Part shown: positions 31,263 to 33,427 of the stretch, in pieces
Position numbering within the stretch: position 1 is the stretch's first letter
Layout of the letters: each line of letters starts with the position of its first letter
From: Alphaproteobacteria bacterium
GTDB lineage: Bacteria > Pseudomonadota > Alphaproteobacteria > TMED109
Length of the DNA stretch: 61,145 nucleotides
Assembly: GCA_022824395.1 (NCBI GenBank)
Contig: JAJDZX010000095.1
Coordinates: forward strand, 1-61,145
Direction of reading: 5' to 3'
Translations under genes and position numbers: made by a program
The notes under the pieces: generated by a model
Database searches by the model: none
What the model was told of the DNA's origin: nothing
The model's input: the letters and a program-made list of their open reading frames with translations, nothing else

Positions 31263-33382
31263 CGCTTCGTCACCCGCTCCGCCTTGTAGATCTCCGACGA
31301 TGCCTCCAGCGCGACCAGGATCTCGTTGAGGTGCCGGATGTTCTCGACCTCCACGTCGACGTCCAGGTCGAAGAAGTCGACCGACCGGCGCTGGACCCGC
31401 AGATTGGCGATGTTGGCGCCGGTCCGGGCGATGCCCGCGGCGAGTGCGTTGAGACTGCCCGGCCGGTTGGTCAGCTTGACCCGCAGGCGGCCGGTCTGAC
31501 CGGGGACGTCGTCGCCCTCGGCCCAGCTCAGGTCGTACCAGCGCTCGGGGTCGCCGGAAAACCGTTCGAGCGTCTCGCAGTCGATCGTGTGCACCCGCGC
31601 GCCCAACCCCTCGGTCATGATCCCGACGATCCGCTCACCCGGCAGCGGCGAACAGCACGTCGCGAGGTGCACGGCGATCCCGGGCTTGAGCCCCTTGATG
31701 CCCACCGCGGCTCCCCTGACGGGGCGCCCCTTGCGGGTCTTCGCGGCAAACTTCCGATGGGCCTTCGGATGAATCGCGCGCAGGACGTTGGCCCCCTCCA
31801 GCTGCCCGGCGCCAACCGCCGTGAACAGTTCCCGCTGGGACGTGTAGCCGAACACCTTGAGCACCGGCGACAGCATCTTGGGGACGAATTCCTCGCCGGC
31901 CATTTCGAACTCGTGCTCGATGATCGCCTTCCCCAGCTTCTGGTGCTCCCGCTGCCGGCTTTGCCGCAGCGACTTCCGGATCTGGCTGCGGGCGCGGCCG
32001 GTCCGCACGAACGTTTCCCAGACCGCACTCGGCTGCTGGCTGCGCGACCGCAGGATCTCGACCTGATCGCCGCTCTGCAGCGGCGTGTCCAGCGGCGCCG
32101 GCCGGTCGTTGATCTTGCAGCCTACGCAGGTGGCGCCGACCCGGGAATGCACCGCGTATGCAAAGTCCACGGGCGTGGCCTGCTCGGGCAGCGAGATCAC
32201 ATCGCCCTTCGGCGTAAAGCAGAACACGAGATCGTTGTAGATCTCGAGCTTGGTGTCCTCGATGCCCTCCGAATGATGCGTCGCGCTTTCGAAGATCTCG
32301 CGCAGGCCGCGCAGCCACTGCAGCGTGGCCGCGCTGAGCTGTTCGGGACCGCTCCCCAGTGACTTGTACTGCCAGTGCGCCGCGAGCCCGTACTCGGCGA
32401 CCTGATGCATGTCCTCGGTGCGAATCTGGATCTCGATCGCCCGCTTGTGCGGCCCGATCACCGTGGTGTGCAGCGACCGGTAGCCGTTGGGCTTGGGCAG
32501 GCTGATGTAGTCGCGGAAGCTGCCGGGCACGAAGCGCCACTGCCGGTGCACCACGCTCAGGGTGCGGTAGCACTCCTCCTCCGACGGCGTCACCGCACGG
32601 AAAGCAAAGAGGTCGGTGACCTTCTCGGTGGTCACGCGCTTGCGCTGCATCTTCTGCCAGATCGAGTAGGGGCGCTTCTCGCGCCCCGTGACCTCGCCCT
32701 CGATGCCTGCCGCCCTCAGGACCCGACGCAGTTCGTTGAGGGTCCGGCCAACCTGGGAGGGGTAGCGCTTCTTGAGAAAATCGAGCCGTCGACAGATGGC
32801 ATCATGCTCGGCGGGCTGCAACTCGGCGAACGCCAGGTCCTCCAGTTCCTCGCAGATCGCCATGATGCCGACCCTGCGGGCGAGCGGAGCGTAGAGGTCC
32901 AGCGTCTCGCGGGCGATCCGCTGCCGCCGTTCGGGCTTCTGGATGTGCTGGAGGGTCCGCATGTTGTGCAGCCGGTCGGCCAGCTTGACCAGAAGGACCC
33001 GGACATCCTTCGACATGGCGAGCACGAACTTGCCGAGATCGCCACGCCCGGCCGACGAACGCGGCTCGATCTTGGACAGCTTGGTCACGCCGTCCACCAG
33101 TTCGGACACCTCGGTGCCGAACTCGCGGCGAATTTCCTCTTCCGTCGCGACGCCGTCCTCGATGGTGTCGTGCAGCAGGCCGGTGGCAATGGTGGCCGAA
33201 TCCAACCGGTACCTGGCCAGGATGCCCGCTACTTCCAACGGGTGCGAGAAGTACGCCTCACCTGATTCGCGCTTTTGCGCGTGGTGACGCTCCATGGAGA
33301 ATGTGAACGCGCGGTTGAGCTTCGCCTCGTTGACCGAAGGGTCGTATTCGCGAACCCGTTCAATCAGTTCCTGCTGGCGAAT
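31259..33382 (-). CDS. rsh: Bifunctional (p)ppGpp synthetase/hydrolase, probable ATT start
   Basis: A 707-residue RelA/SpoT enzyme controlling the stringent alarmone ppGpp. Domains in order are HD hydrolase ([37 protein letters not shown]), synthetase ([54 protein letters not shown]), TGS ([20 protein letters not shown]), and C-terminal ACT ([20 protein letters not shown]). The conserved N-terminus [15 protein letters not shown] lies upstream of the first ATG (33295). In that frame only an ATT at 33382 is available, eight bases behind a perfect GGAGGA, with a stop codon further up. Starting at 33295 would remove the conserved first helix. It follows rpoZ in the same direction. Confidence 0.93.
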
Positions 33383-33399
33383 GGTGGATCCTCCGTCAT
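33383..33399 (-). promoter_or_regulatory. Strong ribosome site deciding the rsh ATT start
   Basis: On the minus strand the sequence GACGGAGGATCCACC immediately precedes ATT CGC CAG CAG. GGAGGA is a perfect anti-16S match with a spacing of six bases to the ATT. In this frame the codons upstream are CAT GAC GGA GGA TCC ACC, after a TAG stop, so no ATG, GTG, TTG or CTG can serve. Confidence 0.75.
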
Positions 33400-33427
33400 G
33401 CTAGGTCGCCTGGCCCGCGGCCGGATC

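Follow-up and report, generated by a model that had tools for sequence, protein, structure and literature searches.

Conserved AUU as the Probable Translation Start of rsh, the Gene for a Long RelA/SpoT Homolog, in a Genus of Alphaproteobacteria

The rsh Locus and Its Start Region

The stretch of DNA analyzed here (61,145 nucleotides, contig JAJDZX010000095.1 of the alphaproteobacterial assembly GCA_022824395.1, further referred to as the window) carries on its minus strand the gene order rpoZ, rsh, pyrE, with the ATG of pyrE overlapping the stop codon of rsh (ATGA). The coordinates of these genes and of the elements discussed below are collected in Table 1. The product of rsh scores 648 bits against the family model TIGR00691 (cut-off 499) and displays the domain order of long RelA/SpoT homologs (HD, RelA_SpoT synthetase, TGS, ACT), with Pfam matches to HD_4 at residues 25-173, RelA_SpoT at 233-341, TGS at 387-444, RelA_AH_RIS at 456-550, and ACT_4 at 631-703. 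The gene appears to encode a long Rsh, the enzyme that both makes and breaks (p)ppGpp, and it is the sole long-Rsh match at E <= 0.001 in its own genome (3.75 Mb, 92.85% complete).

Table 1. Genes and sequence elements at the rsh locus, in window coordinates.
Feature	Coordinates	Strand	Basis or remark
rsh, long RelA/SpoT homolog, 707 codons counted from ATT	31259..33382	(-)	Pfam and NCBIfam
rpoZ (RNA polymerase omega), upstream neighbor of rsh	33428..33970	(-)	TIGR00690, PF01192
pyrE (orotate phosphoribosyltransferase)	30657..31262	(-)	TIGR01367
ATT, proposed initiation codon of rsh	33380..33382	(-)	no other in-frame codon from the stop to codon 6 is a single base away from ATG; 8/8 loci
GGAGGA, putative Shine-Dalgarno of rsh, 6 nt before ATT	33389..33394	(-)	invariant in 8/8 loci; duplex -9.5 kcal/mol with assumed anti-SD
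Invariant 24-nt block TGACGGAGGATCCACCATTCGCCA around the proposed start	33375..33398	(-)	identical in 8/8 loci, flanks vary
TAG stop in the rsh frame, 18 nt before ATT	33401..33403	(-)	letter-by-letter reading
ATG at codon 30, the first in frame, not accepted as start	33293..33295	(-)	no Shine-Dalgarno (+0.7 kcal/mol); conserved coding above
Overlapping out-of-frame 11-codon ORF across the Shine-Dalgarno and start of rsh	33364..33399	(-)	ATG in 3, GTG in 5 of 8 loci

On the minus strand the rsh frame reads TAG CAT GAC GGA GGA TCC ACC ATT CGC CAG CAG GAA CTG. The first ATG, GTG, or TTG in this frame is the ATG at 33295, and between the TAG stop and ATT no in-frame ATG, GTG, TTG, or CTG is found, the first CTG being codon 6. 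The original prediction, made from the window alone, held that the conserved N-terminus of Rsh is encoded above the first ATG, that ATT at 33382 is the only plausible initiator below the TAG stop, and that GGAGGA lies six bases before it (33394-33389), and the letter-by-letter reading bears this out.

Conservation of ATT Within the Genus

Eight distinct rsh loci were compared, from seven genomes of the genus (the window, G001, G002, G003, G004, G005 as locus L102, and G006) and from one further assembly (L032). ATT is kept in all eight, and between the upstream stop and the end of codon 3 none of them offers an in-frame ATG, GTG, or TTG. The 24 nucleotides from -16 to +8 are identical throughout; divergence at third codon positions of rsh, computed for four pairs, ranges from 13.3 to 34.5%. 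An 18-nucleotide core of this block, GGAGGATCCACCATTCGC, is present in 4 of 385 genomes of the class, exactly the four members of the genus that were drawn. The prediction of an AUU start is strongly supported by these observations, and relatives with ATG at the site, which it had named as evidence against itself, were not encountered within the genus. A sequencing or assembly error is an unlikely source of ATT, since the eight distinct loci, which come from different genomes and assemblies, all show it. Taken alone, conservation of the ATT is weak to modest evidence, 30 of the 39 all-isoleucine codons of rsh being invariant in six genomes, and the 24-nucleotide run at the start is among the longest invariant runs in the gene but not the longest (38 nucleotides). 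At the level of sequence, it is conservation together with the absence of an alternative start in all eight loci that is decisive for ATT, with the Shine-Dalgarno (SD) sequence supportive only.

The assembly of L032 (JAPPBK010000307.1), with an rsh at 95% identity, is labeled Chloroflexi, and locus L100 (JAIMBF010000008.1) is labeled Terriglobia. In both, the rsh gene is close to alphaproteobacterial ones. Both labels, or the respective bins, look wrong.

Shine-Dalgarno Energetics

Duplex energies were computed with anti-SD letters that were assumed, not taken from the 16S rRNA of the genus, whose 3' end was not found in seven genomes (in three, no match extends past position 902 of 1533, and four give no match). 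With this assumed anti-SD, the duplex before ATT reaches -9.5 kcal/mol in 8/8 loci, compared to +0.7 kcal/mol before the codon-30 ATG (also 8/8), -0.7 to -4.3 before the codon-6 CTG, and -2.6 to -5.0 before an out-of-frame ATG or GTG located 17 nt upstream of the ATT. In a control within the rsh of the window, an energy equal to or better than that for ATT was reached at about 4% of the in-frame positions, and thus the SD is not decisive by itself. An SD-like motif precedes NTG in 12 of 25 hand-picked genes of the window vs. 55 of 547 internal NTG codons, a comparison that is not like for like, with several NTG codons allowed for each gene. Concerning the 16S rRNA matches themselves, those of L126, L127, and L128 end at model positions 870-902, near contig ends, and the match in G003 is gapped at 546-560.

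At its 3' end, rpoZ has a sequence (GGCGAGGAT) complementary to the start region of rsh (ATCC...TCGCC; 33383-33442, minus strand). A hairpin between the two, of a kind that could couple their translation, was suggested by eight folds, and the z-scores for the four of the eight tested (-1.79, -1.27, -0.24, and +0.18) do not support it.

Coding Constraint and Alternative Starts

Among six full-length sequences from the genus, 6 of the first 29 codons of rsh vary, with no amino acid changes, and 23 of these 29 codons are invariant, vs. 334 of 678 downstream (Fisher p 0.002). Since codons 1-29 differ only synonymously, this stretch is very probably translated. Many relatives from outside of the genus share the N-terminal block in the form M-(I/M)RQ(Y/F)EL(V)ER, and the best-matching chains among solved long-RSH structures align with the rsh frame from query residue 4 or 7, others (5iqr, for example) only from residue 48. 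The position, the frame, and the conservation of the ATT, along with the constraint on the codons that follow, are direct observations.

Translation could alternatively begin at the codon-30 ATG, which is the first in-frame NTG and is the start that an ORF list restricted to NTG picks (31259-33295), leaving the coding-like stretch above it untranslated. Initiation there would strip the conserved N-terminal part of Rsh, and it is contradicted by the purely synonymous change in codons 1-29, by the match of these codons to the N-termini of relatives and to the N-terminal region of the solved chains that match best, and by the lack of an SD before this ATG in any of the eight loci, making such a start very unlikely.

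A second alternative involves the out-of-frame start codon 17 nt upstream of the ATT, from which ribosomes would shift by -1 into the rsh frame to produce an N-terminally extended Rsh. This codon is present in 8/8 loci, as ATG in three and as GTG in five, and the 24 nucleotides from its second base are invariant. It is, however, preceded by a weak SD, no slippery heptamer is seen by eye in CCACCATTC, the GGAGGA sits inside the short ORF exactly where the SD for ATT is expected, and most relatives begin with M-(I/M)RQ, without such an extension, so that we find this scenario highly improbable. The short ORF itself, which reads ATG/GTG ACG GAG GAT CCA CCA TTC GCC ...TGA and keeps its start codon in all eight loci, could be a candidate regulatory upstream ORF or could be there by chance.

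Finally, Rsh could be made as a readthrough fusion from rpoZ, with the two genes in the same frame, 48 nt apart. The stop of rpoZ and the ATT do share a frame in 7/8 loci, but L002, shorter by a single nucleotide, falls out of frame. Before the ATT there is also a second in-frame stop, TAG or TAA, in 8/8 loci, and the identity of the rpoZ stop is not constant (TGA in three loci, TAG in five); a fusion of this type is extremely improbable. Overall, initiation at AUU is the best reading of these sequences and a very likely one.

Starts Outside the Genus and Elsewhere in the Window

The AUU start of rsh is, on the loci sampled, a trait of this genus of uncultured bacteria and not of Alphaproteobacteria in general. 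In all 93 distinct loci from outside of the genus, NTG is available in frame at the site or above it: 68 have it at the same codon or the one just before, and 25 at another upstream position or among the first three codons. The same is true of 80/80 further genomes of the class, hand-picked among the better matches rather than drawn at random and possibly overlapping in species with the first set, with NTG at codon -1 or 0 in 78 and further upstream in two. Elsewhere in the family, eight loci of other genera (L009, L018-L021, L023-L025) have ATG 14-20 codons upstream and a divergent N-terminus. Two further loci with a possible non-canonical start, L100 and L205 (ATC one codon above), were not counted, as an in-frame NTG lies further up (ATG at -33 and TTG at -33, respectively). 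In one genome (G111:C9:149998-152001) the rsh frame is reported open for 25,104 codons, probably due to a masked run of N or another artefact.

A start other than NTG is likewise not a general habit of the window region, as far as frames of at least 100 codons are concerned. There are 341 such frames, 300 of them with a hit. A coding filter, which required third-position bias and 60% identity to a contig from the genus, retained 87, and 17 stood out for coding conservation that reaches above the first NTG. Fifteen of the 17 overlap longer frames (49722-50105 only partially), one belongs to what we presume to be a porin-like protein and has an SD-backed ATG, and the remaining one is rsh.

IF3, infC, and the Expected Yield of Rsh

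The genome encodes a two-domain IF3, and its gene, infC, is itself informative. In 6/6 readable genomes of the genus (the copy of G005 is cut), the conserved N-terminus of IF3 is encoded as ATC followed by ARGP, behind GCGGAGA (L031 at 1462-1464, and L114-L118), an arrangement that is directly observed. An in-frame GTG is found 19 codons above this ATC in three genomes and 24 codons above in the other three, the position thus differing between the two groups; the ATC is the probable start of infC in the genus, though not the sole in-frame option. In the 30 best of the 56 genomes of the class that matched, the corresponding site is occupied by an SD-backed ATA or ATC; an in-frame ATG, GTG, or TTG within 40 codons above is absent in 21 of these 30 and present in nine, and ATA/ATC starts of infC are likely there as well. 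Such starts are a known habit of infC, and they point to IF3 discriminating against codons of this kind in these organisms; such discrimination is probably in place in the genus.

The model that we favor is that rsh in the genus is translated from AUU, suitably spaced behind a strong SD, and that initiator fMet-tRNA would decode this AUU to yield fMet-Arg-Gln-Gln-Glu-Leu..., making Rsh one residue shorter than the proteins of many other Alphaproteobacteria that start with Met-Ile-Arg-Gln. Because IF3 destabilizes initiation complexes on AUU, the yield of Rsh would probably be low, a fraction of the rate from AUG, and inverse to IF3 activity, as for infC, with the strong SD offsetting the weak AUU in part. 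As a whole, this model of an AUU-initiated rsh with a reduced, IF3-sensitive yield has a probability of about 0.8 in our estimate. Of its parts, sensitivity of Rsh to IF3 via AUU is expected on general grounds and is fairly likely. It is also reasonable to infer, from the two-domain IF3, the ATC of infC, and repression by IF3 elsewhere (PMC5472188), that IF3 may control alarmone production.

What physiological use, if any, would be made of such a start is a matter on which we can be less firm. As both infC (ATC) and the single long rsh detected in the genome (ATT) have starts of the type discriminated by IF3, a circuit may be proposed in which Rsh synthesis would fall as free IF3 rises and would rise when 30S subunits titrate IF3. 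If true, this would couple alarmone capacity to ribosome supply, but we consider this circuit in its full form rather unlikely. The contrasting proposal is that AUU is simply tolerated as a weak start offset by a strong SD, and the role of IF3 is limited to a constant low set-point; it is compatible with the AUU-initiated model except for regulation, and we place it at slightly under even odds. The infC gene is autoregulated by its own product, and such autoregulation, expected here too, would hold IF3 steady, in agreement with a constant set-point. In line with it, the AUU of cvfC1 in Staphylococcus aureus displayed no dependence on the medium (PMC13009471). On the other side, ATT has persisted over up to 34.5% third-position divergence, even though a single transversion would give ATG, which suggests selection for a weak start, an argument rather than a test. 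On balance, a constant low set-point of Rsh is as likely as a regulated link to IF3.

If the one long Rsh detected in the genome does begin at a conserved AUU, the stringent response of this lineage would be limited at translation initiation, and a link between IF3 and alarmones could be tested directly and simply. There is a practical side as well, as gene callers restricted to NTG would cut Rsh by 29 residues in genomes of the genus and would often misplace the start of infC.

Comparison with Known Systems

The rsh gene displays the sequence features of starts discriminated by IF3: no NTG at or above the N-terminus, an SD-preceded codon that differs from AUG in one base, and conservation across the genus. 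To our knowledge, few bacterial genes besides infC rely on a start of the AUU type, several of them encoding regulators whose dose matters. No description of an rsh or another ppGpp gene with an AUU start was found among the papers listed, as judged by titles and the openings of abstracts, with few subscription papers covered. The infC gene shares with rsh an AUH start candidate behind an SD (ATC in the 6/6 readable genomes of the genus, ATA/ATC in the 30 best of 56 in the class) and differs in that its codon is AUC or AUA and that it is autoregulated, while rsh encodes an unrelated enzyme and has AUU. Another example is pcnB of Escherichia coli, whose AUU start is discriminated by IF3; the AUU is common to both genes, but pcnB encodes a poly(A) polymerase and is gammaproteobacterial. 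A third example is sigR of Streptomyces, with a GTC start repressed by IF3 (PMC5472188). Like rsh, it encodes a stress regulator and has a genus-conserved non-canonical start and a strong ribosome-binding site (AGGAGGTG); unlike rsh, its start is GTC rather than ATT, it has been demonstrated experimentally, and the product is a sigma factor and not an alarmone enzyme (PMC5472188). Finally, conserved AUU and AUA starts with extended SD sequences in S. aureus yielded about 10% of the reporter expression from AUG in poor medium (PMC13009471). Two of these, cvfC1 (AUU) and ccpN (AUA), resemble rsh in the conserved AUU/AUA codon and the strong SD, with reduced expression, and differ in having an extended SD, in having been mapped by ribosome profiling, and in being other genes (PMC13009471). 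The closest precedents for the AUU of rsh are sigR of Streptomyces and cvfC1 of S. aureus, and with them rsh joins a small class of conserved non-canonical starts.
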